Below are positions 1 through 64,000 of a DNA stretch of 64,000 nt, one piece after another. The stretch's first letter is position 1; every line of letters begins with the position of its first letter. A program made the translations under genes and the position numbers. Under the pieces are notes generated by a model. That model was not told where the DNA came from. It saw nothing but the letters and a program-made list of their open reading frames with translations, and ran no database searches. This DNA is from Lepidurus packardi (Eukaryota > Arthropoda > Branchiopoda > Notostraca > Triopsidae). The stretch lies in contig JAKZAN010000198.1 of assembly GCA_023053545.1 (NCBI GenBank), positions 1 through 64,000 on the forward strand, given 5' to 3'.

Positions 1-203
1 CCCCAACCCCAACCCCAACCCCAACCCCAACCCCAACCCCAACCCCAACCCCAACCCCAACCCCAACCCCAACCCCAACCCCAACCCCAACCCCAACCCC
101 AACCCCAACCCCAACCCCAACCCCAACCCCAACCCCAACCCCAACCCCAACCCCAACCCCAACCCCAACCCCAACCCCAACCCCAACCCCAACCCCAACC
201 CAA
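1..203. repeat. Macronuclear telomere, (CCCCAA)n
   Basis: About 34 uninterrupted copies of CCCCAA, read as the C-strand, start at base 1 and end at about 203, after which the sequence becomes unique. This is the C4A2/G4T2 telomere of oligohymenophorean ciliates and marks the left chromosome end. The tract is perfect, with no C3A3 variants of the Paramecium kind and no C4A4 units of the hypotrich kind. Seen directly. Confidence 0.98.
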
Positions 204-408
204 TTCTTGCTATCCCAACCCCTGTTTTGTTTGGGACTCCTTCATCAATGACTGGATCATAAATCTGTGGCTAATAGATCGAACCCTCGGCCACCCGTTA
301 CCTGCACAGACCATTCTCAGTATTTATAATTGTCAGATTAAGAAGTAAACAATAGAAATCTAGTTGAATAAGTATAATAGTTAATTGTACAAAAATTGAG
401 AGTCAGCC
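204..408. other. Short subtelomeric non-coding stretch
   Basis: Only about 205 bases separate the telomere from the stop codon of the first gene. The stretch is AT-rich towards the gene and has no repeat family and no gene that I can see. It would hold the 3' end of the kelch-BTB transcript. Confidence 0.6.
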
Positions 409-2760
409 TCAGGAGTTTATCTCGCTATTCTCCTTTTCTGAGTCGTGTCTGTTCATCGACTTGTCCACTGGCTTCATCACTCTCGCCATCTAGAATAACT
501 CGACCCGGTTCTGCTGCAGCTCGAAGTACAGCATCTTGTAGTACTTGTTCTTCTTGCTATTCATCGCTTTCGCCATCCTTTACACGCACTCTTTCTCCTA
601 GTACCATCCATATCCCAGCTCCACCGGCTTCTCGGACTTCCCTAGAGACTAGAACGATTCTTTCCTATTTGTTAGCGACCTGCTGACTGTCTATTTCTTG
701 ACAGTCTGCTCTGCGCAAAAACTGGACAGGCGCTCCAAGTCATTGGCAGTCGCGAATTCAAATACATCGCCTAGATTTTGGGAGTTTATGAGTTGGCTGA
801 GTTGGGCCTCGCATATCGATGTGAGTCGGTCTAGACAGTAGTACTTCGACGCTGCAGCCAAAGAAGCCCATTCATTTTCTAAGAAGTTGTCCGGCACAAG
901 AGCAATATCGAACTCCAAGTATTTCATCAGCACTCTGAATACTCTTTCAGGCAGAGCATCCAGCTGCAGAGTCTAGGCATCTTCGAAGAAGCCCCCATTA
1001 ATGAGACTGTTCAGGTATTCGCTCATGAGAGCAAGGAGGAAGCGATTAGATTTCACAGCAACCTTGTCTGATACGACTGTAATATCGTAGTAAGGGGAGG
1101 AATCGTTTTTGGTGAGGGCTGGGAGCCAATCAGCCTCTTTGAACTTCATGACTCCGGAAGAGTCGCTCGGCAGTGATAGAATGGAGCTTTCGAAGTCGTT
1201 TCCCTTTAATCTATTCTGGATCGTCGCATAGTAAGTTCTATTTTCAGAGCCTTAGTAACTATCGAACTTGATCTTCTTGCCCTGTAGCACCGATTTATCG
1301 ATCTCTCCGACGCCCGAATACAAATACTTCAGTAGAAAGACAGCTTTAGACGAAGGAAGGGTCTGCAGAACGTCGATCACATTCTGTATCTTCAGTGAGT
1401 CATAAGCAAGTGCCGGCAGCCATAGAGTGGGATTGACTCGGATTGTGCCGTCAGCCACCTTTAAATGTTATGGCAATAGCTTGGAATCCTCATTTTTGAG
1501 GAGTGTGTTATACTTTGTAAGGATTTGCATTTTATTTATTAGGGGCTTGGTTTGGTGGAGGTTGATGAAGTGCATGTCATTGAAGTATTCACCGTTAAAG
1601 CCGCCAAAAACCACCAGGCAAGACCCCATGAAGCTGGCACAGTGACGTCTGCGGGCTGTGGGGGCCTCAGATGTGCCCTTTACAGTCTTAATAGAGTTCA
1701 GGTTTAGGTCGATGACCAGCAGATCGTTGAGATCGTTACTGAATCGGCCTCCGAAAATGTAGATTTTGTGATCTAAGACAGTCGATGTGTGTCCCCAACG
1801 TGTCAGGAAGGTTGCCCCGTCAAGTTTTCTTTCTTTCCACTCTAGAGATTCGTAGTCGTCGTTATCGATCAGAGGAGTGAGATCGAGAGAATATACGTCG
1901 TTGAGGGCACGATATCGGCTATGGCAGCCTGCAATAATTAGCATTTATTTGCCTATCAGTGCACTAGAGTGGAAGCGCCGAGAGCATGGGCGCGGTTTCT
2001 TCTTATCAATTATGACTTCCCTCCAGCTTGATGTGAGGAAGTTGAAGATCCAAAGATCATCAAGATCGGCCAAACCTTCACCACCGTAGACCATGAGGTA
2101 AGGAAAGTAGAGTTCAGCTGAATGGTAGGTCCTCTCCCATGGAGCATTTTTTTAATCTGAGATGGTTGGATTGTTTGGGATAGATAGGGTACCTGTAGGA
2201 GTGATCTCAGTCCAATGCTTGGTAGTCCAATCAAGGACACTAATGGTGTTAAACCTTTTTTTGCTTGACCCGCCGCCGCCAAAGATAATGATTCTAGGTA
2301 GTTGTTTAGTTTTTCAGTTCTAGGTGCCGGAGGGTCGAGTAGGGACGCGATTCAATTATTTGTCACAATAATGAGTCGGACCGAGACAACCGGTAGGCAC
2401 TATTTAGAAAGAAAAACAGTTAAGAAGGCATCGAAATTAATAGGGCGAAATTACCTGTTATTGGCTGCGTCGTAGTTCATCGTGCAGTTGGAACGGTGTT
2501 GCGGCACGTCGCCTGTGGCCTGCACCTCCCGCCACTCCATGCTTGTCGCGTTGAATACCCACATGTCATTCATGTAGTTAGTGTCTGATCGAAACTCGCG
2601 TTACGAAGAATATCAGGGAGGAGGTACCTGCGTAGCCGCCGAAGAAGACTAGTTCGTCCTGGATGACGCAGGAGGTGTGTCCCCAGCGGGACGAGGGGAC
2701 TGTGCCGGCAGGTCTGCGAGTGCACACCTTTTTCCAGCGGTAGTTCGAGGTTTTGTCCAT
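409..2760 (-). CDS. Kelch-repeat protein with C-terminal BTB domain
   Basis: About 715 aa. The N-terminal half is a kelch propeller: blades show the R-WGHTS, FFGGYAD and IYIFGGRF signatures, with R-H/S pairs between blades (about residues 1-380). A BTB/POZ-like region follows (about 480-620: ITVVSDKVAVKSNRFLLAL, then a second helical part), then a charged tail. Kelch-BTB proteins usually act as Cullin-3 substrate adaptors or actin/microtubule-associated proteins; the role here is inferred from the family only. Two introns fit (43 nt near 2587-2629 and about 161 nt near 2293-2453); with both removed the frame closes exactly at TGA (409-411). About ten in-frame UAR codons, five of them in the last 95 codons. 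The start is the first ATG before the first blade. It is the terminal gene of the chromosome. Confidence 0.85.
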
Positions 2761-3220
2761 AGTTGGTCTTATTATCTATTGCTGCGACTTTCGTTCAAGC
2801 GTACTTCTTCGTATTTTAGCTTGTTAGTTATTATTTATTATGGTCGTTTGCCAATTTTTCAATTCCTATACCCCAACTCCCAACTGTTAAACCTTAAATC
2901 CCCTACCCTACCGCCTCCTCACTACAGCACAGCTCAGGGCTGTCCCTACTCTGCCTCGCCCACACTACTCGATACCCACAGATTAACGAATGCTTGACAG
3001 TGGAGAGTGTTAAGTGGAAGGTGGGTTGATAGTGAGTGAGTGAGTTAGTTAGTTAGTTAGGAGGAAAGTGCTAATTTCGAGGCCTATAGTTTGTGCTGCG
3101 TTTTGGAAATTTGGAAGAAAGTTTTATTTGCTACCGATGAAGGTGGGTGCCTATGTTAAACATTCTATGAAAGCAGTGTTCCATCATATTTAATATTAAA
3201 AAAATCAAGCACACAGCACC
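2761..3220. promoter_or_regulatory. Divergent intergenic region
   Basis: 460 bases between the divergent starts of the kelch-BTB gene and the SHIPPO gene, so both promoters should lie here. Apart from the tetranucleotide repeat at 3031-3061 I see no recognisable motif. Confidence 0.5.
3031..3061. repeat. Short tetranucleotide repeat (GTGA)n(GTTA)n
   Basis: Seven to eight tandem tetranucleotides: GTGA units pass directly into GTTA units. It is a simple microsatellite in the divergent promoter region; no function can be assigned. Confidence 0.8.
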
Positions 3221-5995: not shown

Positions 5996-8900
5996 TCAAG
6001 GCTTGTCCGTGTCCACAGGGTGGGGCTGGTAGCTCCAATCATCGTCCTCGTCACTGGGGTTCTTCACATCCATGTTTCCTGCCTTGTCGCTCAGCACTTC
6101 CTACTCTTCTACCTCGGTCTCTTGCTGCGTCTCATCCTCGTTCAGCTTTATCGGAGTTTCGGACTGTGCATCTTGGATCGGCTGGCCTTTTCGCTTGAGG
6201 AGAAGGTCATGGTAGGCTTTGACGGCTGAAGTGCCCAGCTAGACTTTGTTGTACTGATTAGTGCTATATCTATATGTGATATTGGATTTGTTAGGAGTGA
6301 ATATTACTTGTTGTATTATTTGCGTGCTTCATCTGCGAAATGCTCTACGAACTCCCCTAAGAACTAGACTAAACTTTTGTCTGTCTTAACAGGATGAGGC
6401 ATGGCCCAGAGGTAGTCGTTAATTGCTTCATCCGCACAACACATCAGCAGAATTGCCTTGGAACACAGAGTTGTGTAGATCTGAGCCTTGCTGATCTGGA
6501 CCATGATGCACTCGCAAATGCTTCGACCACCATCTAATTTGATGGACGATTCGTAGCTGTAAACCCTTTCGTCTGAAGAGAAGAATGACGAACGAGATCC
6601 CATGAGGGGTCGATCTGTGGTTGGATTGAGTTTCGCTGGCACACCAATGATCATTTTGATCCTTTCTATTTGCAGAGAGTCTTTTATAAGAACTAGAATG
6701 TTAGCAACATCCAGATACGCCTGTACAGTGTCGAAGTTGGTCCGGTCCATACCTTTGTTAATGATGGCAGCTGCTTTCTTCGAGGCGTCGAGATTTTCAC
6801 GGCAACACACCTGAAGGAGACTCGCGGTAAAGGTAGTGTTTTTGTCGGAAATCATCTTGTCAAGGAAGTCAGGATGCATAAGGATGCGGCGGTCTGTGGC
6901 AGACAACCGGTCTTCATTAGACAACAAGATCTTTTTGAAAAGGATGTTGACCGTATCGAGAAGTATAGCGAAATTCGGAGAAGCATAGGCATTTCCTAGC
7001 TGATGTTTCTTATTAGAATAGATTCCCAGAGGAGATTTTTTATCTAAGTAGTAATCTACGAAGTGGCTGAGCGCTTCTTTTCTCTTCAGGTACTGTTCCT
7101 GAGGCACGCCTTGGTTTGCGAAACCCCTCCAGAATTCCCAATATTCACAGAATCGCATCCAATTTTTAGACACAGTCGTCGGGATCAAACTAAACAGCTG
7201 GTTCAGGAAGTCGACAACTACCTTGTCAGTACCACTACTCGTTGTGAGCTCCAGGTTGTTACTCGAAATTAAGGCAGAAACCAGTTCAAGGTAGATGTTG
7301 CAAATTGCTTGTCTCAGCTCTACGTCGGAAGATTCCAACATTAGGTTCATCATTGTCTCATTTTTAAGTAAGCAAGCGCAAGCGTTGGGTTTCTTCGAAA
7401 TCGCAGACTGCAGGTTGGCAAGCAGGTCCTTGAGTTTGGGTTGTTTGACCCATACCCCGAAAGCCAGTTTCTGAGTAGTATCGATTATGTTGGCAAACTG
7501 CTCCTCAGAAAGTGGCAAGCCCAATAAACCAGTATAGAAAGAGATGAAGGATCCAGAGCAGATGTTAACTTCTAACTGGTGGACTTGGTTATCTTCATCG
7601 ATGAAACGACGGTATTCGGGAGTTATGTAGCCAGATATCGGCTCAGCCAAAGCTACCTTGAGCTCCTATATTTTTTTCTCTACAACGTTGTTGTTAGGTT
7701 CTTATTTAATAGGTGCGTCCTTGACGAAGTCGTGCTATTGTGCCACCGATGCCTTCCTGATAGGATTCAAAGGACTCTACTCCTCCAGTAACGACTCTTC
7801 CTCCTCTTCTTCTTGATGATTGACTTCCACGTTGGTTTGTTCTTCGACATGAGGCTTCAATTCCTTGAGGTCTAGTCTGGCCAAAGTTTACTACTTAGTC
7901 CTTTCGTCTTTGAAAATCAATTCAATGTTGGATTTCTACTTCTTTTCGTATATAAGCATATACGCGTTTCTGCTGTTCTCCTTTGTGGTCCAGTCGAACT
8001 CATCCTCTGTCACTTACGACGTACCTCCGAAGCACTCAGACTCCAGATTTTTGGGATCAAAACTCACCACATTGCTATCGTTGAACTCTAGCCATTGTTC
8101 TTTGTCTGTCTTAATGAATGAATAGTAGTGCCCGAATTCTGCCCCTCCATTATGAACTACTACTCCTTTCAGTTCATACTCAACTGGTTTGGGACCTTAT
8201 TTCTATTATGCTTTTTCCTCAGCCACTGCCTTTTCTTTGTTATTAGAGGATCTCTAATATGCTTAGTAGGAATACGGTTAGAGATCGAGAAGCTGTGGAA
8301 ATTCAAGTTTAGTACTAATCTTTTAGTTAACGAAGGTATCCAGGTTGAAGACGATTCTTTGCAGGTGGATGATGAGGGCATTTGGGAACCTGTTGATCAC
8401 ACTCTTCTTGGTCACATCAGCCTTTTCATTACAGAAGCCACAAGTATACTCATTAATGATCTCACCTTGAATGAATTTGCTCAGAGACTCGGAAAGCTTG
8501 CTATAATTCTTGATCTCCACAGAGAGGCAGTAGAAGGGTTACTCATTCACCTTGGTCTTACCACACTTATCACAGATCAGTAAAGAGTTGAGTCGCCCAC
8601 CATAGACACCGTCCAGAATATACTTGAATGCTGTTGGCTTGAGAGCATTTTCTATTCTATCGAACAGGATGTTGATAAATTCTTGAGAGTCTTGCTGGAC
8701 GCTTACATTGACAGGATTTCCTTCAAAATCTTTAAAGGCAAAACAGAAATCAGTTGGGTTGTAGTCCATTCGTTGTGTGCCGCTCAGGAAAGCGAACATC
8801 CGTTGCATTTGGTGGAGCAAGTTGTCGTCAGTCTTCCTTCCGTCCTCTCTCTAAACAGGATCGACAGGCAAACCATCATCTACTCTTAGAAGCAGATTTC

Positions 8901-11900
8901 TGAAAGAGGTGTTCATATAGAATTGTTGGAGCATAGCCAACATATAGCATATGGCTCCCAGGTTCTTGATGCCGGCATAGTTATAGGGTGAACGGTTCTT
9001 CATCTCATTCTCGGTCATTATTCTGAGGTGGCCTAGTCTTGGACCAATTGTACTTATTGCTAGTTCACAAAGAGTTGAGGTGAGTTAAGGGGTATCACAT
9101 ATGGACAATAACATCGCATAAAGAGCAGTACGGGTTCCTTCGATTCGGCAAGAGATCTGTTTGCCAAACAGGCACCGGTCCCATATGTTGCGGACAACAG
9201 ACTCTGTGATCAGACCTTCATGGATATGGCAAAGTAGAAGGGCACATCCCTTAATAATCTGTTCATTGTGACTATTGAGCACGTTGTCAATCAAGACTTG
9301 AGATACTTTTTTAGCCTGATCTCCTTTAATGCCGAAGTTCTCAATCAAATTAGTTAGAGTCTTAAAGTACTCTTCAGTGATCACCTTCTTTGACACTTCA
9401 ATGTCTTCAGCCGAATTCTTAGGCTCTAAAAACCCAAGCAAACACTGAATGATGTCATCATGTCCTTGGGATCCGAAATGGCAGAGAGTCGCCATAGTCA
9501 CATATAGCAACTTCATCATTCGAGTAGAGGGAGGATGCTTAAAAAGTTTTGCAGCCAGCTCTACGAAGGAGGTGACGGGTTCCTCTAGCATGAGGCACAA
9601 AATGGTTTGCAGACAGTTTTAGAGCTGGCTATCTCTCTCAATGATATAATCTGTTTGAGCCCATAGCTTTTCGAGTACGTCAAGTAGAGTCTGGATAAGT
9701 CCGGATTTCTATCCGCCTTTCCAGGTCGGAGTGGATTCGGTCCATTCTGAGACCATCAACTTATTATACTCTTTGATTTTAGTCTGGTCCTTGCCAGATG
9801 ACACATCCGCGGGGATAGCCTTAGTTTGGAGGTATCTAAGCAACTCATCAAGATCGAGCTGACTCTTGAGAATATTGGAGGGCACTGTGGAGTTTTCTGA
9901 CCAGTAGCATCTAACTATATAGGAAGCAGAGAGATTGAGCACGAATTCAACAATTTCTTGTTCGATGGTTCTGAGCTTACGATCAGAAATGGAGTGCAAA
10001 TCTTTATAGACCTAGAATAACCGTTCATAACCCCTGTTTTGTTCGAAGTTTTCTTTCCACTCACGTTCTTCTTCCGAAAGTCTGGATTCGCTCGTGTCAA
10101 GGAGGTATTCAAAAAGATACAAACTATAGAGCATTTTATAGGGGTAGTTGATGTCTAAGAGTTTTCCCAGACTGTGCTCGCCGCCATTCAAAATGATCTG
10201 GTATAGGTCGTTAGAAATAGGGAGTCTCTCCAGCATTCTCCAAGTTGCTTTGGCAACCTTCTCCTCTTCATCTAATAGACCAAACAACGTCTCATAGAAC
10301 TTCTGGCTCTCTGATAGGAACTGTCTGGGTAGATCTTTAGATTCAACTGGCTCTTCCTCAGGATCATCGAAGGATCTGAAGTCTGGTCTGATTCGGCAAC
10401 TCCTAAGATTACTCCAAACAGCTGCTGGTCTTTCTCTTGAACTATCCTCGTAGAAGTCGAGGAAATTTTTGAAAGTGAGGAAGTCGTCCTTGTCATCATC
10501 ATACATGCTAAACACGGTATTAATCCGGTCATCATAACTACGGGCACTACCTTCTCCAAGACAAACGATAGTAAACTTCAGACACTCATCCTTGGACATT
10601 AGACCATTTGTGGAGAATCGCTTGAAAATAGACTAGAAGGCTTTTATTGCTTTGGGATTGAGTTTACTATTGATGATAAGTTATTCTTGCTGTTGATAGA
10701 AGATTCTTTTAGTGACTTTGATAGGCTCATTTAACTTGATCTTGATTTCTTTAATCAGTCTACAGTTCATCATGTCAGTGAATTAGTTGTCCTTCTGTGT
10801 TATCTTGAGTTCCTGCCACGTCAGAGAAAGGTGCTTCGCAATCTAGCTACGCACTTAGAAAAGAGTTGAGTTTGAGGTGGTCTTTAGATTCAGATTTTTG
10901 CTAGGCTCAAGGATAGCAGAGTAGGTTACGTCATTGATCACGTCAATCATGAGAATTTAACCCTTGCGGATGGTCGCTAGAGCCTTTTTGGTGCATACTC
11001 CTGATTTTTCTGATTCGTCAATGATGGTATCAATCATCCTGAGCACTCGGGGAACCTTTGAGTATTATTTGTTACTCACAGCATCGAAAAATAGACTAAG
11101 GAACGAGTCAAGGTATTCTTTGCGTTGCGAACTTTCCACGTTCATAGTAGTATAAAGACTGGAGTAGAAGCCAATGGCCAGTTCAGCCACTGAATCATCT
11201 TCTATACTCAAGACCAGTTGCAAGAGTCTATCATGGTATTTGAATTATTTGAGGTTGACGAGTGCCTTCATTACCTTCTCATCTTTGCCATTACGCCATG
11301 TGTTGGTGATGCTCAGGTTACACACGTCATGGTTGAAGTCTACGAACATGGTTTTCAGGAGTTCGAAGGTGGATTCACTGATGGATGCAACATTTTCGGG
11401 ACTGGTGAACATCTCGAAGAACTCTTAGAGTTTGCTCTGCTTAGTAGCATCAAATATCTTCTATCTTTTGAGGGTGGCAGAACACCATTTATTGAAAATT
11501 AAGGGTTCGCAGGCTAGAATCTTCTCCGTAGTCATCATTCTCCAAATCTGGACAAAAGCATCAATGTCCATCTTGACTCTGGTGTTGCTCGTCATCACCA
11601 GTTTCAGGAAGTTCAGCACAGCATTGACCAGTGTTACGAAATTCTATTAGTTTGTTTTTGCCTGCTTCCTCAAATTAGCGATGTTGTGATATAGCACTGC
11701 TCCGATGTTAATTTCATTCAGATACTCGAGCAGTTCAGATTTTCCGAAGTCCCCCGAGCCGATCTGTTCGTAGATAGCTGTCAGTACCTTCAAGACTGTG
11801 AGGATCTTGTTGAGGCTGCTAGGGGAGGGTGTTTATGAGTACGCAAATACATTCTGTTCTAAGTGGTCGAGGAACATAGTCACGATCTATTTGCGGCGCG

Positions 11901-14063
11901 GGGCCATCTCAAAGTGTCTGATCAGAATATCTGCATACTTCTTGATGGCTGCTTCTAGAAGATTTTTGTTGATGTCCTCAGCCAAGATGATCCTTTGGAA
12001 GTAGGCGATTGCTTTCTGAAGAGGGAAGTAATTCGAATACTTGGAAAGCTCGTGCAGAAGTTCCATATCTTCGCAGCTAGCCAGAGTCAGGTCTGCCTCC
12101 AATATCTGATCAATCAGATAGTCTACATGAGGTTTCTTGAACGAGTTGGACACATCTTCCAATAGTTTGTAGACGCTGATACGGGTCTCATAGTCTCCCT
12201 TCTGGGCAGCGGTGTAGATCTGGCGCAACTACTCAACCTCCAGCAATCCTTCGACAACCATAAATCTTAAAAACTCGGTTGATTTCTTGATCAGCTGCAC
12301 ATGGCTGTTCACAATATAGACTTTCTCGAAGACTTTGTTTTCTCTCATCCAATCGCCAATGAGTTGGATTTTACTAAAGGTGTTAGTACTGTTAGAGACA
12401 TAGGTCCTCATCGATCGCAGGATATCCTTGAGTTAGGATAGACCTTGGAGTCTTCGTTTGAGGGACTCGCTCTTGAGACACAGGGTAGCTAGTCTCAATT
12501 TAATTTTGGACTCGAATTACTTGACCACTTCGTTACTAAATAGTCTTTTCTTGAGCACCTTAAAGCCATTGAACATGAGTTATGATCTCTACTTCGTGAA
12601 CGATTTGAGGGTAGCGTCACTCTCATCCATCACGTGGGTCAATATTATAGGCTCTAGCTTCTACACTAGTTCCTTCACATAGCTCTTGTGCAGATTAAAA
12701 GAAATGCCTCCCAAAGCTCCTAGAAGGATTGCCAACATTTCTGGATTGTTGTTCTTGCTTAGATTTTCAATCATCCAATCAATACCTCCTCCTAGCACAA
12801 AGTCATTAACGACCCTGAACAGTACCTTCGATCCCATCTTTTGTCGAGGCGCCATGATGATCCTCACCCCATTAACACTGTCCATAACGTGGTCATTGAT
12901 GTCGTTCAGCGTCTATCCGTGTGTACGATGGGTTGTGCTGTACTACTTGAACCTAGCAACAGTTTCGACTTGCTGAATGCGAGGACTCATGATATCGATG
13001 TCGTCTTCATCAAAGGCATCAGTGAGTCCGAAGTAGTGACCCTTATCGCATATGCGGTCCCCTTGCTCGTCGAAAACTTTGAAAGTGACCTTAACCTTTT
13101 TGGAGCCTGTCTCTGTCTTGTGGACTTTAGCCACTGTACCTGTATACCAAGAACCGTAATTATCACATGCATCTACCAGATCTCCTTCTTTAAGCCCTAG
13201 CCTCCACTCAAAATCAATCGCCTTAGTATTCACTTCAGCCATCTCAATCGAGTCATAGACGAGGTCTCGCTCATAGCTGTAGGGATCGTTGAGATAGGTT
13301 ACTGTCATAAAATCGGGCTGAATGTCTTTGACTTGAGCCCTGGTCCATGTGGCCTTATTTATGTATGTGCCGTAGTCGTATTTAATGGTGTCGATAAAGT
13401 TTCCGAGTTCGATAGTAGACAGGAAGTGGTTTTGCTGGGTGTTGGGTTCGTAGTAGAGCCAGGGCTGTAATGCAGGTAGGTGGATGTAAGATAAAATAGA
13501 TTTTTGAAGGAGAGTGTTACATAAGGTTTGTAGTCGAACTGGTTGTTGGTTCTGAAGTAGTGGGCGTCGGAGTCCCATACCACGCTTATGAGCTGGGCGA
13601 ACTGGCTGTACTTCGGGACAAAGTCAATGTATTTGAGATAGATTTTCATGGATGTCTCCAGAATGGTATTCGAGTAATTCAGGACTTGTTCGAATCTGAG
13701 CTGGCCTCCTCGCCACCAGGCAGAGGATGGTACTTGTTATGATTATGACAAGACAGGGGTTATGAAATGGCTTTACTTGAAGTATTTCGAAGAGATCAGT
13801 TTCTGGCACACTTGCGGCAGACATTCATTGAAGAAGAAACTTTGGATTTCCTCATCTTCAAACGTTTCAGACAGTGCCAGTGTCTACATGCGTTGGATCA
13901 GCTCCACGAGCAGCTTGAGCGTGGGAATGCGCTCCTCCTCGTCGTAGTAGCTCATCATGAGGGTGGAGTTGATTCGCTTCCTCCATAGCTCTTTGTCGAA
14001 TGTCTATTTGGTGATGGGGTAGTGTTCGAGGGATTTGGGGGCGGGGCCTGGGGATTGGGTCAT
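5996..14063 (-). CDS. USP9X-like ubiquitin carboxyl-terminal hydrolase
   Basis: About 2,630 aa, close to human USP9X (about 2,570). The USP catalytic domain lies at about residues 1,650-2,000: the Cys box GIKNLGAICYM (Cys codon 8947-8949), the QQDSQEF box, a zinc-ribbon CDKC/CGFC pair, the LDLEPY motif and the His box FGHYYSF (His codon 8128-8130), then WLEFND. Long helical repeats flank it, as in USP9X. Upstream is a small SH3/Agenet-like segment (near 13,150) and a degenerate EF-hand loop (near 10,480). It should cleave ubiquitin from substrates. Three introns (81, 56 and 38 nt) make the length an exact multiple of three. The EPY Glu is UAA. Oddity: Ile replaces Thr in the Cys box. The C-terminus ends in an acidic tail and TGA. 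Confidence 0.9.
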
Positions 14064-19756: not shown

Positions 19757-20520
19757 TCACTTCTTGGCGGTAATGCTCAAGAATCTGCGCTCAGCGTCCT
19801 TCCAGTTCACTATCTTCCAAACCTGCTTCACGTACTCAGGACGCAGGTTCTTGTAGTCGATGTAGTATGCGTGTTCCCAAACGTCGATGGCTGTAATCAT
19901 AATTCAATGGTCAAAAGAGGGTCTTACTCAGCAAGGGAGTCAGTCCTGCAGGGGCCAACATCTCCTGGTTAGGGAGTTCCATGATGCGCAGAGATTTGGC
20001 AACGTTGTCATATGCCAACCAGCCCCAACCACTACCTTGGATGGGCACAGTCCTCTTGGTGAACTCGTCGATAAGCTTCTCATAGCTCTCGAACTGCTTG
20101 TATACAAGCTTGGTGAAGGGTGATTCCTCAGAAGGATACTATCCTCCACCTCTGCCGATCGGGGCCAGATTCTCCCAGTAGATGGAGTGGTTAATATGTC
20201 CTCCAAGATTGAACTTGATGGTCTGGGTGAGTCCTGCCATCTTGTTGTAGTCGAAATTTTGCTCAGCTTCTAAGCAAGAATAAGTTAAAAAATGTACCTT
20301 TGAACTGGGTGATGGCGTTGTTGAGGTTGGTAACGTAGGCAGCGTGGTGCTTTTTGTGGTGGGTTTCGAGGAGGGACTTGCTGATGACGGGCTCAAGTTC
20401 ATGATAGTCGTAGTTAAGGTTGGGGAGGGTGACAGGGGTCCAGCCCTTGGTTTCAGCAGCTGTGGAGAATCGTCCAACAGCGGGGTTGAGGAGGCGACGG
20501 GCAAAATGAGACACGAACAT
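19757..20520 (-). CDS. SOD2: Mitochondrial manganese superoxide dismutase
   Basis: 232 aa after removing two introns (20270-20297, 28 nt; 19891-19927, 37 nt), typical for the family. It dismutates superoxide to oxygen and hydrogen peroxide. The N-terminal ~25 residues are Arg-rich, Ser/Thr-containing and without acidic residues, as in a mitochondrial presequence. Fe/Mn-SOD landmarks follow in order: [17 protein letters not shown], the PNQ of Mn-type enzymes, and the metal-binding DVWEHAYY. The codon after GGG in the LAPIGRGGG loop is UAG (20139-20141), where Mn-SODs have a conserved Glu. It ends in KK and TGA. The start is the ATG at 20518-20520; an upstream in-frame TTG is ignored. The next gene begins 167 bases away on the other strand. 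Confidence 0.95.
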
Positions 20521-35685: not shown

Positions 35686-37983
35686 ATGCAGGAAGAAATA
35701 CCGGAAATCGACTTCAAGGAGTACTCGTCCCGTTTCAAACTCATTCGCAAGGAAAAGGATACCCACCTTCAGGAACACCTCCTCATGAAGGACACCAAGA
35801 CCAAAAGACGCGTCATAGTCAAGCCCGAGCATCTCGACTCCGAATAGCAATTCAAGATAGTACTTCGTCAACTACAGTCTCTGCTTCCCATCAACCAATC
35901 GCCCCACTTCGTCAAATTCCTGGGCTTCACAGTCTCCAACCGCGTCACCTACCTTATATTCTAGTATCATGAGGCTACACTCGAGTAGTCTCTGAAAACC
36001 ACTTCGGTCCAGAACAAAACCATACCTGAAAAGGCGATGTACACATTTCTGACGCAAATGATCTCTGCGCTGCAGTTCTTAGAAAGTATAGGCCTGCATC
36101 ATCTAGATATCCGGCCCCACAACATTCTAGAACAGAATAAAGAGTCTCTGACGCACTGTTTTAGGCTGTTTTTCACCCACTGCACAGTGGACTCTGTAGA
36201 GCAACTTCGCACTGCTGACATTGCGAACTTCGAGTACTATTTTCTGTCTCAGTACCAGTTGAGATAACTCAATCAAATCTACCATAATGGAGCAGATACC
36301 CTTTTTGAAGGAATGAGACCGCACTAGAAAAGTAAAAGCGACATGCAGAGTTTAGGTCTAGTCGCACTCGTCATGGGAACACTCAACCAGAAGGAAAGAC
36401 TGTACTCTTATGGTGAGAATGAGCTGCTAGAGTGGAATCAGGAGGTGCTGAGTCGACGGCTCAAAGACTTCAGAAGAATATACTCTAAAAAGTGTGTTCA
36501 TCTGGTGTAGGCACTGTTAGAGGCCCAGTAGGACTCTTTTGCAGGGTTGATTGAGCTTCTATAGGAACAACCAGGTGAACATTTTCCAGTAGGAAATGCT
36601 TACCGAAGCAAGAACAAGAACCGAAGCGCCAGAAACTCAGAAGAAGAAAGACCTGAAAGATTCCTAAGAATGATCAATAAAAACCCTGCCACTCCTCCCA
36701 TGAACCGGACGACTGATAATTTCAACATCTACTCTGACGGAGGGAGTATGCCTCTGCTTTCGGCAAGCAAGCCTGGTGGCACTCGCAAGATGCAGCGCAG
36801 CATTTAACCCAAAGAAGAAACTACTATTTTCTAGAGACAGAAAATCCAAATCTAGGAGGAAGAGGCTTCGACAACACGGGAAAGATACTTGAGCAACCTC
36901 GAAGAAATATAGCGGAAACTAATCTACAGACCGAATAGCAAGCAACTACTCCCTACGATTCAGTAAAAACAATATGCTGATGGGTCACGCTATGTCGGGT
37001 AACTGTCCTCAGTCACTGGCGAGAGGGAGGGCAAGGGTATCTTCTACTATGCTGAGGACGATGTGTATGCCGGGGAGTGGAAGGATAACACGCTCCAGGG
37101 GTACGGCATCTACCTATTCTCCAACGGTGAAAAGTACTAAGGGGAAATTAACAAAGGAGTAAAACATGGAAAAGGATAGTATCTCTATGAAAATGGAAAT
37201 CGCTACGTTGGAGACTGGGTCAACGACAGAAAACATGGTCAAGGCACCTACTATTATAAGGACCTGGGCGACATCTACGAAGGAGAGTACAGGGAGGGGC
37301 TCAGGGAGGGAAATGGTTCCTACATTGCTGCCAATGGGGACCGCTACGATGGTTCTTTCAAGAAAGGAGACCGATCAGGGTCTGGGAGAATGGTGTTTCG
37401 GTCAGGAACAGTAGTAGAAGGTATTTTTGTAGCCAATGAGCTACAGGGACTGGGCACAATTAGATACTTTAATGGGGACATGGCAGAGGCAATGTTCCAG
37501 AAAGGAGCCAAATCTGGTAATGGGCTCTACAACTATGCTGATAGTACTATTTTTGAAGGATGGTACGAAAAAGGGAGCAAAACAGGCAGAGCTACAGTCG
37601 ACTATAGTAACGGAGATCGCTACACAGGAGACCTCGTCGAAGGCAAAAGACAAGGAACAGGTACTTACCTGTATGGTAGTGGCCTGTAGTATACTGGGGG
37701 ATGGACGGACAATTCGAGGCACGGAAAAGGTCGGCTAGTGGTGATCGCAGATGGTACGATTGTGTCTGGCGAGTGGATATACGGGGAGTTGAGACAGCCG
37801 TGTGTGGTTACATACAGAAACGGGGACACGTACGAAGGCGAAACAATCAAGCAGACAGTGAAAGAAGGGAAAGGGAAGTACCGATTCAGCAGCGGATAGG
37901 AGCTGGAGGGTCTGTTCGGGAACAACAACTTCATCCGAGGAATATTGACGGACAGCTATGGAGTTTCAAGAAGCATCTAGTGA
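35686..37983 (+). CDS. Pseudokinase-like domain fused to MORN repeats
   Basis: 765 aa, no intron; ATG 35686 to TGA 37981-37983. Residues about 10-290 resemble a protein kinase: a hinge YLIFEY (Glu = UAG, 35962-35964), a catalytic-loop remnant HHLDIRPHNIL and a helix-F-like KSDMQSLGLVALVMGT. There is no glycine loop, the DFG region reads like FRLFFTH and APE is absent, so catalysis is unlikely. A charged linker (about 290-420) leads to at least ten MORN repeats of the form Y-x-G-E...GxG (about 425-750; e.g. RYVGDWVNDRKHGQG, YAGEWKDNTLQGYG). MORN repeats bind membranes or cytoskeletal partners, and ciliates have many at basal bodies and cortex. Penultimate codon TAG, then TGA. Confidence 0.82.
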
Positions 37984-43432: not shown

Positions 43433-46400
43433 TCATGTTCCCGTGCTTCCGTTCTTGCACTTGAACCATATGATGTCCTTAGATTCTCGCACCCAACCTT
43501 TGTGATCGTTCCGGCATCCCCCGATACACCCGTAACACACTGATTTTAAGTCACACTTCAGACATTCGTAAGTCTTCCCCTCCTGACTGTCACCGTAGAC
43601 TGAAAGACAAACAGTAGTGTTGATTTCAGACTTGCACTCTCCAGAAAAGGCACAGATGCAGTATGCAGGCTCATAGACTCGCACTACATGGTGTTGCTTG
43701 GGGTGACAGTGAATTGCGCAGTACTCGCAAAAATGATAGTACTTATACATCTCCTTGTCTTCTTTGCAAGTGAGGCAGATGTAAGGCTGGCTGCTTGGTC
43801 CGCAGCTGTGCAGTCGTGAGCAGAATCCTTTTTCCTATGATTTGGTTAGATTTGTATATGGATACCTTGGCATTCTTGTTGAGGGTGGTTGGCTTTCTAC
43901 GCACGTGGACACAAACACTCTAGTTACCGTAGTGCAAGATGTCACAACGCACAGGTACTTCTGTTCGGAGACAGTTCTTTACATCCAGGAGTATCTGGTC
44001 TTTCTTCGCGAATCTGTTATAGACCACTACCAAGTGATTCAGTTTACACCTGAACAGCTTGTCGACAGCCTTCATGAGTCCTCGCCATCCTTCAGAAGTC
44101 ACATCAGTATTGTGAATGTCGATTTTGAAGACACATGTTTTCATGAAGAGAGGAATGACTGTGCAGATGTATTTCATGGAGGAGTCGTCGAACCGGTTCT
44201 CACTGAGGTTTAGGACGATCGTATCGATTTCAGTTTTGGAGAGATTGCTGAAGAGAACGTTGATTTAGCGTCCACTGAGGTGGCAGTCGGCCAGATCGAG
44301 AATGAGTTCTTTGAGAGCAGTTTTCGTAAGCTGGCTCGAAAGGCTATTGAGGGTACCTCCTAATTTGTTACCCCGATAGCAGAGAGTGAAGCTGTTGATG
44401 TTACGGGGCAGGTGCCAAGGACTTTCTTTGCCATGGACGATGTCATTGTGGCTAAGATCGATGTACAGTTTGTCAGCCTTACTTTTGCTGAGCAAGTCAG
44501 ATATCATCTTCGACTCTCTCTCGGAAAGAGCAGTGACTTTGGGCAAGCTGCGGAGAGATATCTTGATATTAAGGGCATCTGAAGAAGCTACTTTCTCGAC
44601 GATTGAAAGTAAATACTGTGACGGAATGGGGGCCCGATCCAGGTTAATTGTCACTTTCTTGATCTATTTGCGGAGGAAAACAGTGCATATTTCGAGATAG
44701 GGAACCTTGCTGTTTTTCATTATCAGGCTAACAGTCGACAAGTACATCAGCTGGCACACTTCCGGCATTTCCCCCGCTTTCAAACTCTCCTCCATTACGT
44801 ACTCATTGAAGTTTATTACTAAACTCTTCAGACTGCACATGCGATTGATGTTGATCATGCAATCCACAAGATTGTATTCTTGACTCATTATGAAACACAC
44901 CGATTTGATTCCTTGCAGAGTAATTGTACTGGCTGGAACCTGGGCAGATGGAACCGAGGGATGAGTAGGACTGCCATTGTTACTGGTTGTAGCACTATTG
45001 CCAGACCAGAATGCTACAGTCGCCAATGTAATCAACTTCTCAGTCCAAACATGAGACATTACTGTCGCAGAATCAACGAGGTTTTTATATTGCTGCAGAT
45101 CCAGGGTAATTAATTCCTTATTTGCAAACTATATGGTACTCACTATACTACGTGGTCTGGTGGGAGACTCAGTCTAAGTCATTAAAGGCGAGGGCAGACT
45201 ATCCCTTTTAAAAAATGAAGTGCCGTGTGTGGCTGCATTCGAACCTATTGTGGGTAGCACAGTTTTGTTATATCGATTCGTGGTATCCTTGGTTCTACTG
45301 TTGCTTATGATGTTTCTAGGAGCCTCCTTGCTCTTGTGGGGGTTGCTTTGTGGGTAGATCAGATGGGTTCTTGAAGGATTAGGCTTTGGGATTTCTATTC
45401 GTGTGGGCAGTAATTTTGCTCGAAATTCGTTCCTCGTGACAGACTTCTCCGAGATTTCCTTGGAGCTTTCGAGAGAGTTGTCATGAGCCATGCGGATAGT
45501 CTCACGGCTGATGTCAAAGGCATTAACCTTGCTGGTTGTGGACTGGTAGAGATCAATATTCCTATTTGCTTCCTCTTGTAACTTAGTGATCTGACTCTTC
45601 TTCTCATCTAACTCCTTCCTTTCTTCCTCCTATGCTTTCAAAACAATGTCTTGCAGCCGTATGAAATCAGACCGACGCTTTTCGTCGAATTCAAGAGCAG
45701 CGTCGAGAAAGTCACTGATCAAGTGGTTATATTGGTGACATTCCTTTGCTTCTTTGATCCACTCTCCCACTACTTATTTGTAGACTTGTTCGTCCACCTG
45801 CAGTCTCTCGTTTGACTTGTACTTCTGAAAGCGGATAATGTATAGAAGGCACAGGCCAAGACTGAAGGCGTCACTTTTGAAAGGATTGTTGCACACAGGC
45901 GACGAGGAGTTAGATTTGCAACTGTGCACGAGTTCAGGAGCGAGGAAAGGTACAGTTCCGACGAGGGTGCCGAACTCAGTGGAGTCTTTGGTGACTCGAC
46001 AGCTCCCAATGTCGCATATCTTGACTGTGAGTTGGTTTATGTCCGTGATTATGATATTTTCCGGTTTGATATCACAGTGGGCAATGCTCTTTTTCTAAAG
46101 CAGGACAAACGCGGACACCAGAACCTTGAGTAGCCGGCAAACCTAGGAAGTAGTGAATCTGTTGCCGCGTCGATGACGATGCTGGATGACCGAGTCGAGA
46201 CTGGTGATCCCTTTCTCCATGACTATGTATGCGAACTCGGTCCTGCCGATGAACCTCTGCAGGTAGGTGCGGAAGTAGCCGTAATACTCGATTATTAGTT
46301 TGGATTATTTGGATAGCTCCTTCATGATTTTGAGCTATTTGGCGAACTGGAGACGATGCTCTTCAGACTTGATGAGGACTTCTTTGATGGCCCGGGTTTC

Positions 46401-46805: not shown

Positions 46806-48124
46806 TCAGAAGTTCTTTAGTATATCCCTAACTTGGTCTCTATGTACGGCTTTCTCCATCTCAGTGAAGTTGAAAAGCTGGGTTCCCACTAAGTCACCGT
46901 TGATCTTCATGTTCTTCAGTTACTAAAAGTACTCATGCTTCAATGCTTCAAAACAGTCTATCCTATTCTCAGGATCGTACGTCAAAATGCGACTCAATAG
47001 GTCTTGCAGCAGAGGGTCTGACTTGGGAAGTATTTTGGCCCATCTCCTACCCTTCAGATGCGGGAATTTCAGGTCTGGTTTTGTTGGGTTTAGAGCGATT
47101 ATTTGTTCCGGATTTGGTGTGCCTATCGTAGAAAATATTTTTGCCAGGTGATCGACGCTGCTATCTGCATAGAATAGTGGTTCCCCTAACCACATTTCTG
47201 CAAGCACGCACCCTGCAGACCATATGTCAGATTTACACGAATAGTGCTGATTCCCGAAAGCCAGCTCAGGAGCCCTGTAGTTTCGAGAACAAACGTAGGC
47301 CAAGTTGGACTCCCCCTTTATCAGCTTTTTGGCGCTACCGAAATCGCATATCCTATAGTTACAATCTCTGATATGAATGTATACTTGAGGGTGTAGTTCT
47401 GGATGTTGACCAGTATGTTCCTTGGTTTGATATCCCTGTGGCAAATTCCACAGTCCTTGAGGTAGGCTAAACCTCGGAGGATCTGGAAACCCAATACTTT
47501 GATGAGTACGTTCGGAAATGTTCCCTTATTTTGATCTGCAGACTTATGAAAGTACCTTATGAGTTTGTTGAGGTCCTCTGGTACGTACTACATCAGCAAA
47601 TGTAGGTACACCTCTTCTTTCTGACCCTTTTTCTCTTACTCTTAGCTGTTAGTCCCAGATTGAGAGCTCGGTAGCTCTTTGGTAAAGAAAGAGTGGTACA
47701 GTCTGACAATGTTCGGATGGTTCAACTATCGCAGAATTTCTAACTCTCGATTTTTGTAGTTTTCGTCCTGCATCACTTTTTTGACAGCTATAGTGTCCCC
47801 CGTCGCCGAAATGGTAGCGTGGTAGACCACACCAAATGTTCCTTTGCCGATGACTTTGTTGATTTTGAAGTCCCAGGCGCGCGAAGACCCTGGCTTGGCA
47901 TTATGGCTGTTAGAAGGGTTGTTGCGGAAGGTCTTGCCTGTCTACTGTGGGAGGCCGGGGACGAACTGATTATGATTGGAGGAGTTTTATCTGGAGTTGT
48001 GTGCATTTTGGTTGTGCCCAGCGCTGTGGTTGTTGGCATTGCTACTAGTAGACCTGTGGACGAAGCGTTGAGACAGGATTTTGGCGGGGTTGTTATCACG
48101 AGGCTTGTCAGTTTTCAAATTCAT
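46806..48124 (-). CDS. GSK3: GSK3 / shaggy-type serine/threonine kinase
   Basis: 428 aa after one 32-nt intron (47353-47384), frame exact to TGA 46806-46808. A polar N-terminal ~80 residues precede the kinase domain: glycine loop GKGTFGVVY, AVKKV lysine, NRELEIL alpha-C, hinge LLMEYVPED (Glu = UAG, 47588-47590), HRDIKPRN, CDFGSAKK, and the GSK3 signature SNLAYVCSRNYRAPEL, including the activation-loop tyrosine. GSK3 phosphorylates primed substrates and acts in growth, motility and stress signalling. The intron sits just before the DFG segment. An insertion of about 20 residues lies before the hinge (acidic and Ser-rich), which is unusual for GSK3. Divergent neighbour upstream at 48,530. Confidence 0.93.
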
Positions 48125-50230: not shown

Positions 50231-50317
50231 CAGTTGAACAGGCATTCTGTACATAGCTCAGTCTGACATATCATATTGGGTGAATTTTATACATCAGATC
50301 TACTATGTCACTTAATA

Positions 50318-51883: not shown

Positions 51884-53663
51884 ATGGGACTCCTAAAAGA
51901 TTTCGGACAGCTCCTCACCTATAACTAATCCCGAACCCATCAGCCACTCCTTCAAATGATCGCGGCCGCCCAGTTCCTACACATCCTCAAAACTCATTCA
52001 GCCCAAGACCAGCATCACGACTAAGAAGTCTATTGGGGCGACGAAATAGAGGGCCATCGGCTCTACCTCGACCCTAAGACTAAGCTTTTCTCACTTGACG
52101 TACAGCCTCTGCCGCAAGATACCGAATTCCCCATCATGGTGGAATATGGGCGCTGGATGTTCGAAGCTATACCGTCTGAGCCGCATAAGATTAAAGGCAA
52201 CCTGAAAGAAGTTGTGAACTCTCTCGTCCGAAGATAGCAGATTATGGCCAAACTGTAAGAAAACGTTACATATCTGATGATCCCCAACGTTCCCTTCCTG
52301 GGAGTCAAACCTATCGACCCTTCGAACTTCGTTAACGAATGTACTGACAGTCTCTTCATCGACGATACCCATATCGCTGACCACCCTCGCTTCAGGACTC
52401 TGACCAAAAATATCAGAATCCGCAGAGGCTCCAAAGTTGAAATATTAATACCGATATTCCAGGATCAGAACACTGACCTCTCAACAGTGACTCAAAAAGA
52501 TCCGGTTCCAGGGCAAATCTATATGGATGCTATGGCCTTCGGAATGGGCATGGCCTGTCTCCAATGCACTTTTTCTACAAAAAATCTCAGTAATGCTCGA
52601 AGGCTTCACGATCAGCTTCACATTTTGAGTCCCTTATTTTTGGCTCTTACAGCAGGAACCCCGATTTTCAAGGGCAAGCTCGCCGCCACAGATACTCGCT
52701 GGGATGCCCTGACCATGAGCGTTGACGATCGGACTCCTGAGGAAAGAGACCCTCACAACAAAATGTATGTGCCAAAGTCACGATACGCAAGCTCCAGCTA
52801 CTTTATCTCTGAACGACCGTAAAACCTCCCGATGTACAACGACGGACTTCTAAAGGTCAACAAAGAAGTAGTTGAGTTTCTGAGTACCCAGACGGAGGTC
52901 CCAATCGATCAAAATTTAATCAATCATCTTGGTCTGCTGAGTAACCGTGAATTCCTGATTGTCTATGAAAACTTCCTGCACATCGACAAGACCGAAAACT
53001 ACCTCTTCGAAATGATGAACTCCACTAATTGGAACTCAGTCCGCCTCAAAATCCCAATTAGCAATATCGGATGGAGAGTCGAGTTCAGGACCATGGAAGT
53101 TCAACTAACGGCACAGGAAAACGCTGCTTTTAGTCTTTTGGTGTTATGTCTTGTGAGAACTTTAGCCAAAATCCCCTACTCTCAACTTCTACCTTCCTAT
53201 AACCTTGGTGGAGGAGAACTTTAAGAGATCTGCCAAGAACAATGCTATCCTCAAAGAGAAATTCTACTTCCGAACTAATATCATGGATGCTGGGGAACCT
53301 GTGATTCGAGAACTCACTCTCAAGGAGATCGTGTTTGGCTCCGAAGACTACAAATTCGAAGGCCTCTTTTCTGTCATAAAAACTCTGATTGACAAGGACC
53401 TCGTCGGAAAATGCTGCCAGAATAAAGAAGAGGCTTCGAGTTTGATAAAGGTGTACGACGACTTGTACCAGTTCATGTGGGAGAAGGTTTCTGGCGAGAG
53501 GGTGACGCTGGCCCAGTGGATGAGAGAATTCGTCCGGAACCACCCATAGTACAAGTGCGACTCGATGGTTTCAGAGGAAGTGGGGAACGATATGTTGCTG
53601 CGGTTGGCGTCGATTTCGCGAGGGGAAAAGATGGACACTAACTTCAGACCTATTTTCAGATGA
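51884..53663 (+). CDS. GCLC: Glutamate-cysteine ligase (GCL catalytic subunit)
   Basis: About 592 aa; the first and rate-limiting enzyme of glutathione synthesis, joining Glu and Cys with ATP. Family landmarks are dense: WGDEIEG, EYGRWMFEA, MIPNVPFLG, RFRTLTKNIRIRRGSKV, YMDAMAFGMGMACLQ, TPIFKGKLAATDTRWDAL, SVDDRTPEERD, STNWNSVRLKIP, IGWRVEFRTMEVQL. The length leaves one surplus base: near 53,173-53,176 the frame must shift by +1 between VRTLAKIP and LNFYLPITLVEENF. A 25-nt intron (53141-53165) would restore the frame but remove the conserved helix containing LVR, so a surplus base in the CCCC run is the better explanation. UAG 53547-53549 lies at the HP(D/E)YK position. Stop TGA 53661-53663. 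Confidence 0.92.
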
Positions 53664-53899: not shown

Positions 53900-55119
<1,220 letters not shown>

Positions 55120-59298: not shown

Positions 59299-59463
59299 TG
59301 ATGCTTACTTTCCACATATACCTTGTATATTAACCAAAGTACGTATTTTAAACCATTGGATCTTTCGAAGTTCCTACATCTTGGAGGGATTGCATGATTT
59401 TATTGGTTACTGTCGAGTATTAACCTAGATACAAATCCCTAAATCTCAAGGTATCCGTCTTAC

Positions 59464-60539
59464 ATGGGTCTCCCCGAAATCACCCTCCCCTACAACAACA
59501 CTCTTCAGGCCATACTACACAATGAGTACGTCAGATACAAATCCAAAGGTATCAAATACAAATACTCACTATCTTTAGGCATTAACAACCTCTCCATTGC
59601 CTTCACGATCCTTGTACTCTATTTCTATGGCATGCACTCATTCTTGCTGGCAGCTTGGCCTTCGTTGCTGTCTCTTGGCAATGGTAACCATTTCCTACAT
59701 CACCTATCCCCCTGCAGAACGATGTCTCTTTGTATTACTGCTAATGGCCGCTAATCTTTTGCCCCTGATCATCTACAATACCGGATTCATGTTGATCTAC
59801 AAACTGGGGCTAGGAATTTTCGAAAAAGACAGGATCTCTGCGTCTCCATGGCCTTGGTCGACTGACCCTAAGAATTGGAGACGATTTCTATCCAAAACCA
59901 CCAGCAGAGTCTTAGCAAATATTTTCGTAGGTCAGCTTCTGCTACTAATAGTGTTTTCCCAGCTTAATTTTCATTACAAGTTCTCGCTAGCAGAGTTTCC
60001 AGGTAATTTCTTGAACTTTACTGACCCTATCTGCAGATATCGGAACCCATGTATGGCAGGTACTTGTCTTCCTCCTCGTAGAGGACACGGTTGCTACATT
60101 TACACACTCGAGTCTGCATAGTAAAAACCTCTACTACCTGCACAAGCAGCACCACGAATATACCAATACGATATCGGTAGGGGCTGAATACGCCAGTATT
60201 TGGTAGTTTATCTTCTCGAATGCCGCTCCTTCTGGATCTGGCTTCTTCTTACTGAATAAGATTTACCCGGTGCATCTGTCTACGATTATGATTTGGGTAG
60301 CTCTTCGGGTGTTCGAGACCACAAACGTGCACTCAGGATACGAGTTCGGGTGGAGCCCATTCGGTTTGTTACCCCTGAGTGCGAGTTCGGAATACCATGC
60401 ATTCCACCACAGCCACAACTCGGGGAATTACTCTTCATTTTTTGTGTTCTGGGACAACGTGTGTGGTAACAATGGAGACTACTATAAATGGAAGCACGAA
60501 GAAGACAAGAGGCGATAGGGAGTGGCTTCTAAATCTTGA
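59464..60539 (+). CDS. Fatty acid hydroxylase / sterol desaturase family enzyme
   Basis: 325 aa after introns of 30, 34 and 34 nt, exact frame to TGA 60537-60539. Four to five hydrophobic segments (LSIAFTILVLYFYG, LFVLLLMAANLLPLI, VFLLVED) surround the histidine boxes of a di-iron membrane oxygenase: HSSLH (HxxxH), HKQHH (HxxHH) and FHHSH. Spacing matches C-4 methylsterol monooxygenase and related ER enzymes (C5 desaturase, alkylglycerol monooxygenase are alternatives). UAG 60204-60206 falls at the conserved Glu after the second box (SIWEF). It probably oxidises a sterol or lipid in the ER. 166 bases downstream of the PTP stop. Confidence 0.85.
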
Positions 60540-60855: not shown

Positions 60856-63800
60856 TCACAGTAAGAACACGTGGACTGCTCTCCTGTATGTATTTGATTG
60901 ATTGACAGCACAACTACTAACATCTGAAAGGTATTCGAATACTACTTCCATATATAATTTTGTATAAGCAATTATTTTTGCCATATTCTTTGAAGCACAA
61001 GCACTCACTAGTCCTATTTTTATGGCTATTTGAGCGCTGTTATCACTTCTGATTTTATAGTTTCCGACTTCCGCATAGTTTATGCTCGCATTGTCTTCGC
61101 CCATGCCATCTTTATCATCCCCCTAACTTCTTAATCTTTTTCCTCCTTCTGGTCTTCTTTCGGGGTTTTCTTTCTGCATTCTCTTGAGTATTGAGCCTAC
61201 TTCCCAAGACTCCTCAGACTCAGAAGTTTAATGTTCGAAAGCATATCTTTATCTTTATCCTTAAGCTTATCATTGTGTGTTTCCCCTTTGCTACAAAAGT
61301 AAATCGATAAGCCAAACTTACCTTGCTGGAAAGCTGCTCGTGCTTTCATTACAGTCTACTGCGCTTCATATTAAGGATATTTTTTAACTGACTCCTCAAT
61401 CAAATTCAATAAATTCCAAGCCAGGGACACTTTACTTGATGCTAGAAGCCAGTTCACAATTCGCAAGTAAGTATCCACCATTGTGCTACATAATGTTGTT
61501 ACTCTCTACAAGTGTTGCTAGAGATGTTTCACATACTGAGCTAGACTTCCCATCTGTTCGTATATAACAAATCCTTATCGGAAACATTGGTATCTTGCTA
61601 ACTTTCTCTTCTGCGTGTCATTATTGATCTTGACTCTGCATGCCTTCGACACTATCCCCCAGTATGTCTAGTCCCAACTCTGATCGATTGTTTTGTGACC
61701 ACAAGAAACCAATCCCTTCGCCCAGTGAGTAGTGATGATTCTCAGACAATCCCATACATTGACAGGACCGAAACAGCTAGAATTTTCCAGGAGGCCTAGA
61801 AGTTCCTCCACCTGACTCTGAGAATATCCAGAGAAGATCGAAACTCTCAGGTTAATGAGCATTACAATGAATGAAGATACGTCAGTATGCTGAATTTTGG
61901 ATTTCAGGAAAATGTTAAAGCTCAGATCCCAATATTTGTGCGCAAGCCCAATCTCTCCCACGAAAATATAGGCTCTAGCCAGGATGATTGTCTCCAAAAG
62001 ATGAGAAAATATGGGTCTACACTGGCTTAAGTTCTCATGGTGTTCCTTCAGAAACTGATCAACATATTCTTTGTTCTGCTGAGAGATGTAATTATCTAGA
62101 GTGTAAATTTTATTCCTGAGATTACTCGGCTATTGAGGATCAGCCATAGTCTTGGGTCGGCTGAGGATGTTTGAGATATACTAAGCTTCCGACCCTAAAT
62201 CCTTCACATGTGAGTTGAGCAAGCAGAGGAACCTGTAGTAGTCAGACTGACCCCTATAGTTTCTGAGGCAATTCATTACTTCGGCCTTGATCCGAAACCA
62301 CAATTTTTAAATCTAACAGCCACTATTTTCCGCATCAAAAAATTAAACCATCATGGTATACAACTAAGCACGATTACAACGGTTTTCGTTCGGGTCGAAA
62401 TGGTAGCTGTCGAAGTACCTCTACATGACCAATCTGATCTTCGCATGGCAGTTTTTATCATCCATGATTCTGAAAATAAACAATAGGTTGGTGTATTGAG
62501 TCGTTAGATCCCAACTGTGGGCTAAGTGACCGCAACTCTCCAAATCAATAGCCCTTAACTGCCAATACTATGCCTTTTTCCAGTCCCCCTGCCTGAGCAA
62601 GCAGCGACTCATCTCGCTCATGACTCTGGATTTGCTTGAGTTGACGGAACAGCCTTGCTGGGAGCTATAGTGGCGCAGGAACTACTCACACAGTTTTTAT
62701 CCCTTCTGATACTCATAGAGGTTAAGAAGACTCTGTATGAGCAGGATTTCATATTTGTTGAGATCAGAGAGTTTGTTTTTCTTGCATATTTTGAAACACT
62801 CTGTATAATAGTTTAATGAGAAAACAAGGTCTTCCTTATCTTCCACTTTTTTCTTGAGTATCTTCATTCTTTCCTCGCCAGTATTGGGAAAGCCTTGGAA
62901 CTCCCAACGCCCCAGCTGATCCCATTACTTCTTCTTTTCTGCCTGCGCCTCCTTCTAAATATACCTGCTCACGATAATATCCGTGTGGTCTACACTGAAG
63001 AGAGTGTTTGCCAGGAGCTGCCATGCTTTCAGTTCCCTCGCACCCAGATCCTTGAGAACATCGCCTTATTCTAGCTATTTGAGAATCTTCTCGTGAAATT
63101 TCTGCCTGTTCTATCGATTCAAAGTCCTGGCTTGCATCAATTATGCGAATATCCTCCGGACCCTAATTTGTCGTGAGTCAAACTCGGTCTGCTCTAGCTT
63201 GAGTTTTTCTATGCTAGATACTATAGAAAGCAGTTCTTTGGGATCGCACCGATCGAAATCCTCAATAACTGCATCGAAGTACATACACATTACAATCAAT
63301 ATCGATCGCTGCTATTTACTATACACACACGGGTCTCTTTTGAGTTGCGAGTAAACACCGTGGAGTAGTTGTTTAGCCTCTCTGCACATAGCTACCCGGT
63401 TCATGCCACAGACTAGCCGAATAATCTCGTTCAGCTTTAAAGTGCCTTTATTGGGGACTTAGATGTTGGCAACCCTGCCGAAGATCTCCATGACTTTCTC
63501 TCTGAAATTAGGGTCTACTGATGTTTTTCGGAATATAAACTGAAAGAGCCTCCGGTCAAGAGAGGCGTAGTCATGATCAGCTACCTCCTTAATGTTGATT
63601 CCAAATAGATCACTGAATATCTATCTGAGCTACTCGTAATATATATCCATCTGCTTTAGACTCGCCTACGACTACTAGCTATTCAGGAAACTATCAGAAG
63701 CTTGACTAAGTATTACCATGAATGGATTAGTATCACCTTTCTTCATTTCCAAGATAGTTCGCTTCAGACCATGCATGTCATTGTAGTACAAGTCAACTGC

Positions 63801-64000
63801 TACCAGCCCTTGCGGACAGCTCTTCAGCATTTAGTGACTCATAAAGCGTGTTGTGCCCTCCCTATAGGTTGATGTCTTCTGACCTGGGTCTTCTTCCACA
63901 AAGCAGCTAATCCCGAAGTCTGTGAGCACCATTCGCTATCGAGAAGGGCTGAACAGAATGTTTCCAGGCTTAACATCTTTGTGGACTATATGAAACAGGT
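60856..64000 (-). CDS. Protein kinase with long helical C-terminus (5' end off window)
   Basis: The gene runs off the right edge; about 1,000 codons of its 3' part are present, ending at TGA 60856-60858. The edge holds the end of a kinase domain: IVHKDVKPGN, LTDFGIS, and an APE-like GTTRFMSHEML in which the Glu is UAA (63831-63833). The rest is helical and repeat-like, with TPR-like stretches (WQLRAIDLESCGHLAHSW, ILARAYIFVGEIGLAHKYW), then an acidic linker (SESEESWEVGS) and a helical tail. An intron of about 59 nt near 61,265-61,325 was needed for the acidic linker frame. Kinases with large helical tails are common in ciliates; function unknown. About 45 UAR codons. Confidence 0.75.

Follow-up and report, generated by a model that had tools for sequence, protein, structure and literature searches.

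The window, the whole stretch of 64,000 nucleotides analysed here (contig C187 of an assembly of 108.6 Mb in 344 contigs), is very probably the telomeric end of a ciliate macronuclear chromosome, the genes of which are written in the peritrich nuclear code, with UAA and UAG for glutamate and UGA as stop. This corresponds to NCBI table 30, where UAA, UAG and UGA have the same meanings; no difference between the two codes could be seen. An earlier reading of the letters alone (the sequence-only reading) had named it a peritrich-type code, and as a name for the code this is right. It is a known code, and one more genome carrying it is described.

The first indication comes from the open frames of the window. 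The longest TGA-free frame comprises 2493 codons, compared to 640 codons for the longest TAA-free and 585 for the longest TAG-free frame. In 60 shuffles of the window the TGA-free frames had a mean of 480 codons and did not exceed 688. The coding segments, as called by codon usage, contain 106 TAA and 143 TAG besides 518 GAA and 493 GAG codons. Ten frames of the window were scanned against Pfam with the UAR codons masked, and families could be assigned to six of them.

The telomeric repeat at the left end of the window (Table 1) is found on other contigs as well. CCCCAA/GGGGTT repeats cap 16 of 20 ends of ten other ciliate contigs, three ends are without the repeat, and six of these ten contigs carry it at both ends. 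Telomere-capped somatic chromosomes of some tens of kb, a trait of the Ciliophora, were directly observed among these ten contigs. The contigs from C73 upward measure, as far as they were examined, 50 to 143 kb, and most of their kinases contain in-frame UAR codons. The small telomere-capped contigs were taken as ciliate macronuclear chromosomes. Several contigs have round sizes, as if artificially cut (C76, 125000; C78, 110000; C119, 90000; C206 and C215, 60000 each).

The assembly as a whole looks mixed: beside the ciliate chromosomes, six contigs (C1 to C6, with 10 to 14 Mb as far as examined) look animal-like and others have tRNA clusters of bacterial appearance. The ciliate is apparently the companion of another organism. 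Nine kinase matches are located on C1 to C6, four without and five with internal stops (TGA being among the stops in three of the five), which is expected for genes read through introns. Tandem tRNA arrays are present on C1 to C6, the large non-ciliate contigs; those at C4:4462647-4463155 and C2:5429863-5432262 are made up of genes for tRNA-Lys and tRNA-Glu. Bacterial-looking tRNA clusters occur on C42 to C55, e.g. on C42; these contigs have 200 to 400 kb. A search for exact copies of the nematode SL1 sequence gave 0 copies.

What UAA and UAG stand for was read directly from conserved protein columns. The alignment comprised 79 of the 136 kinase matches in the assembly, 75 from ciliate contigs and four from large ones, and UAR codons were hidden in the translations. 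The kinases of the assembly itself served as columns. The score of a codon refers to the columns in which it stands, draws solely on the remaining sequences and is taken against background. Five ciliate-contig matches that contain an internal TGA were omitted and read separately; the lack of TGA in the aligned set is due to this selection and was not used as evidence. Single-frame matches may cross short introns, which causes some noise. As a control all 61 sense codons were scored in the same way, and 61 of 61 gave their own amino acid.

Glutamate was the best residue for both codons. At 126 sites of UAA, Gln follows 71.7 nats and Lys 154.8 nats behind; at 134 sites of UAG the distances are 80.9 and 136.8 nats. 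Upon resampling, UAA was assigned to Glu in 1999 of 2000 draws (one draw gave Gln) and UAG in all 2000. Where half or more of a column agrees on one residue, UAA falls on Glu 34 times, on Gln and Pro twice each and on Gly and Ile once each (86 sites lie on no such column), and UAG falls on Glu 27 times, on Pro three times and on Ser once (103 sites on none). In the APE column TAA was found 7 times and TAG 4 times, together with 58 GAR, 5 CAR and one AAT.

A reading of UAR as Gln, the code of Tetrahymena and Paramecium (table 6), would share the sense UAR codons and the UGA stop with the present genome. It is the commonest variant among ciliates (PMC10553269), and Gln is the second best residue for UAA as well as UAG in the kinases. 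The lead of Glu given above is nevertheless large, and the genuine Gln codons behave in the opposite way: the difference between the Glu and the Gln score per site is +0.57 for UAA, +0.60 for UAG and +0.72 for GAR, in contrast to -0.45 for CAR. In addition, a tRNA-Gln query on the ciliate contigs, in which the assembly is incomplete, gave only Gln(TTG) and Gln(CTG) and no Gln-like suppressor. We therefore regard the Gln reading as very improbable. When the sequence-only reading stated that it found no UAR at a Gln position, this went slightly too far for the genome as a whole: at two of the 126 UAA sites the column has 56% Gln. Gln-consensus columns of the kinases also take GAA (5 of 654) and GAG (3 of 564).

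The kinesin motor domains, of which 20 of 141 matches were used (19 of them on ciliate contigs), are in agreement with the kinases. UAA at 40 sites again gave Glu, with Gln 37.7 and Lys 62.6 nats behind, and UAG at 43 sites gave Glu with Asp as second and Gln 43.8 nats behind. In this smaller control 58 of 61 sense codons were recovered; Trp and the two Cys codons were missed. These numbers also bear on the code of Oligohymenophorea sp. PL0344 (PMC10553269), in which UAG is Glu and UGA stop as in the present genome, and in which UAA is read as Lys. That organism belongs to the same ciliate class and has UAG as Glu in common with the genome described here (PMC10553269). For UAA, however, Lys lies far below Glu in the kinases (the bootstrap 95% interval of that distance is 99.4 to 210.6 nats) as well as in the kinesins, so that this code is excluded by the scores, and its probability is negligible. 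The assignment of UAA and UAG to Glu, each codon scored separately, is supported by conserved columns of two protein families, which reject Gln and Lys. The tabulation of UAR columns in conserved families, which had been proposed as a check of this claim, gave the same answer in kinases and kinesins, with sense codons as controls.

The individual sites of the window are listed in Table 1. An in-frame UAR codon is present at all nine positions at which a conserved Glu had been claimed, and for eight of them the residue of the family could be compared. The column frequencies for the alpha-C, APE and hinge sites refer to the profile built from the kinases of this assembly, and the comparisons to solved structures were done with UAR masked.

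Table 1. Features of the window, with positions, strand and the residue or observation that belongs to each of them
Feature	Position	Strand	Remark
Telomere, (CCCCAA)n, left chromosome end	1..203	.	repeat extent by script
USP9X/USP34-like ubiquitin hydrolase frame	6142..13623	-	2493 codons, 26 TAA and 21 TAG, TGA end
TAA at EPY site, ubiquitin hydrolase	8278..8280	-	USP9X Glu, USP34 Thr
TAG at GGGE loop, Mn/Fe superoxide dismutase	20139..20141	-	mitochondrial MnSOD Glu; PF02777
TAG at hinge Glu column, kinase-like domain with MORN repeats	35962..35964	+	column Glu 0.83
TAG at kinase alpha-C Glu	46335..46337	-	column Glu 0.93
32-nt GT..AG intron, GSK3-like gene	47353..47384	-	joins two frames of the kinase domain; by eye
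TAG at hinge column, GSK3-like kinase	47588..47590	-	column Glu 0.83, Asp 0.11
TAG in HPxYK, glutamate-cysteine ligase	53547..53549	+	Asp in 3ig5
58-nt intron, AGC kinase	54599..54656	-	contains TAA at 54653
47-nt intron, AGC kinase	54729..54775	-	contains TAA at 54772
TAA at hinge column, AGC kinase	54838..54840	-	column Glu 0.83; SGK1 Asp, PDK1 Ser
TAG in fatty acid hydroxylase (sterol desaturase-like) domain	60204..60206	+	PF04116
TAA at kinase APE Glu column	63831..63833	-	column Glu 0.84, Gln 0.09

All 74 ciliate residues in the alpha-C column are encoded by GAR or UAR (30 GAA, 23 GAG, 15 TAA, 6 TAG) and by no other codon. The proposed Glu was likewise borne out for the APE site, for the hinge of the putative pseudokinase and of the GSK3-like kinase, although the GSK3 match of the latter stops short of the hinge, and for superoxide dismutase, where solved mitochondrial MnSOD structures have Glu. 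The hinge column speaks for Glu in the AGC kinase too, with Asp as the minor residue (0.11), but the solved structures of SGK1 and PDK1 have other residues at this site. In the ubiquitin hydrolase the proposed Glu of EPY agrees with USP9X (FAF-X) and not with USP34, both of them solved structures. In glutamate-cysteine ligase the UAR was expected at Asp or Glu and faces Asp, not Glu; of the UAR codons in that protein one faces Glu in the structure and the others Asp, Ala, Ser or Phe. Comparison to solved structures gave no match for the frame at 60204 nor for the Prp39-like frame with HAT repeats, to which the claimed ERAL site, named with no position, would belong.

Of the 16 UAR codons in the kinases of the window 13 could be scored, one being located in an insertion and two in introns. 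Their column sums are 10.3 for Glu versus 0.2 for Gln, and three of the 13 (35986, 46095 and 47726) favour Gln over Glu. As the raw Glu-minus-Gln totals of this column-profile scoring lack a background correction, the background-relative scores of the kinase set were used instead. The sites of the window, taken by themselves, lean toward Glu, and it is the genome-wide columns that decide.

The introns identified in the window are very short (32, 47 and 58 nt, in two kinase genes). Because of the two introns in the AGC kinase, the TAA triplets at 54653 and 54772 are intronic, which corrects the earlier reading of that gene.

UGA was claimed to be the only stop. Eight ciliate matches with an in-frame TGA were read, five kinases and three of the four kinesin matches with TGA on ciliate contigs (C315:39266-39409 was left out). 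In seven of the eight the TGA is located, as judged by eye, in an intron-like stretch, that is an insertion or gap between aligned blocks which resembles a short GT..AG intron. This is expected if UGA is a stop codon. The avoidance of coding columns by UGA was in this way observed directly, and together with TGA-free frames far longer than in the shuffles it upholds the claim, with one of the eight cases left over. This is the kinesin motor L185 (C241:46223-47110, minus strand), where TGA lies within an in-frame insertion of 9 bases after the GSE of DLAGSE. An ordinary intron does not account for it; a micro-insertion, an assembly error, readthrough or a pseudogene were considered, and the case is unexplained.

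The same matches bear on a code like that of Blastocrithidia, in which UAR is Glu as in the present genome and in which UGA is Trp and UAA serves as a stop as well (PMC12153298). The shared meaning of UAR (PMC12153298) would fit. Against it stand the seven TGA codons in intron-like stretches, the lack of any conserved Trp column with UGA among the eight matches, and the chromosomes that measure 50 to 143 kb and end in CCCCAA repeats, so that a code of this kind has hardly any probability left. The peritrich nuclear code with UGA as stop is the preferred reading.

In organisms with UAG or UAR as Glu these codons are read by changed copies of tRNA-Glu (PMC10553269, PMC12153298). By analogy, copies of tRNA-Glu with UUA and CUA anticodons would read UAA and UAG in the present organism, and an eRF1 restricted to UGA would terminate translation. 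Suppressor tRNAs were not found among the 16 tRNAs read on ciliate contigs, nor was a ciliate tRNA-Glu. A UAR-reading tRNA was also sought by pattern, in the Rfam tRNA list (63 of 5192 candidates scored) and with DNA queries, and none was found. Since the ciliate tRNA-Glu is missing too, the missing suppressor says little. A match to an eRF1 domain on the ciliate contig C219 (L055) turned out to be Pelota (TIGR00111, 205.9 bits, above the cut-off); with the eRF1 model it did not reach the respective cut-off. No ciliate eRF1 was found among the contigs. As neither a ciliate eRF1 nor a ciliate tRNA-Glu was recovered, the ciliate part of the assembly is probably incomplete.

Judged from its code the organism is likely a peritrich, which would have entered the assembly as companion of another eukaryote. 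The first report of this code, with 'translation of UAA into glutamate' in its title, is said to be that of Sanchez-Silva et al. in 2003. The peritrichs Campanella and Carchesium were analysed in a further study (PMC4967479), and in a comparison of seven peritrich genomes from 2025 the term 'genetic code' is absent from the main text (PMC12411067). It is also conceivable that UAR as Glu arose independently in a ciliate outside the Peritrichia, which would be a second origin of the code among ciliates. No datum of this study fixes the place of the organism among the ciliates, and code changes are frequent in this group (PMC10553269). The published phylogeny, however, places the change of UAR to Glu in the Peritrichia and infers it only once (PMC10553269), and we consider a second origin unlikely, if less so than the other alternatives.

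The peritrich nuclear code is a rare genetic code, and it is confirmed here in a further genome with long telomere-capped macronuclear chromosomes. An annotation with table 1 would break the ciliate genes; with table 6, about one fifth of the Glu codons would be mistranslated (249 of the 1260 UAR and GAR codons in the coding segments of the window). The ciliate contigs are material for tracing the changes of tRNA and eRF1 behind the reading of UAR as Glu.
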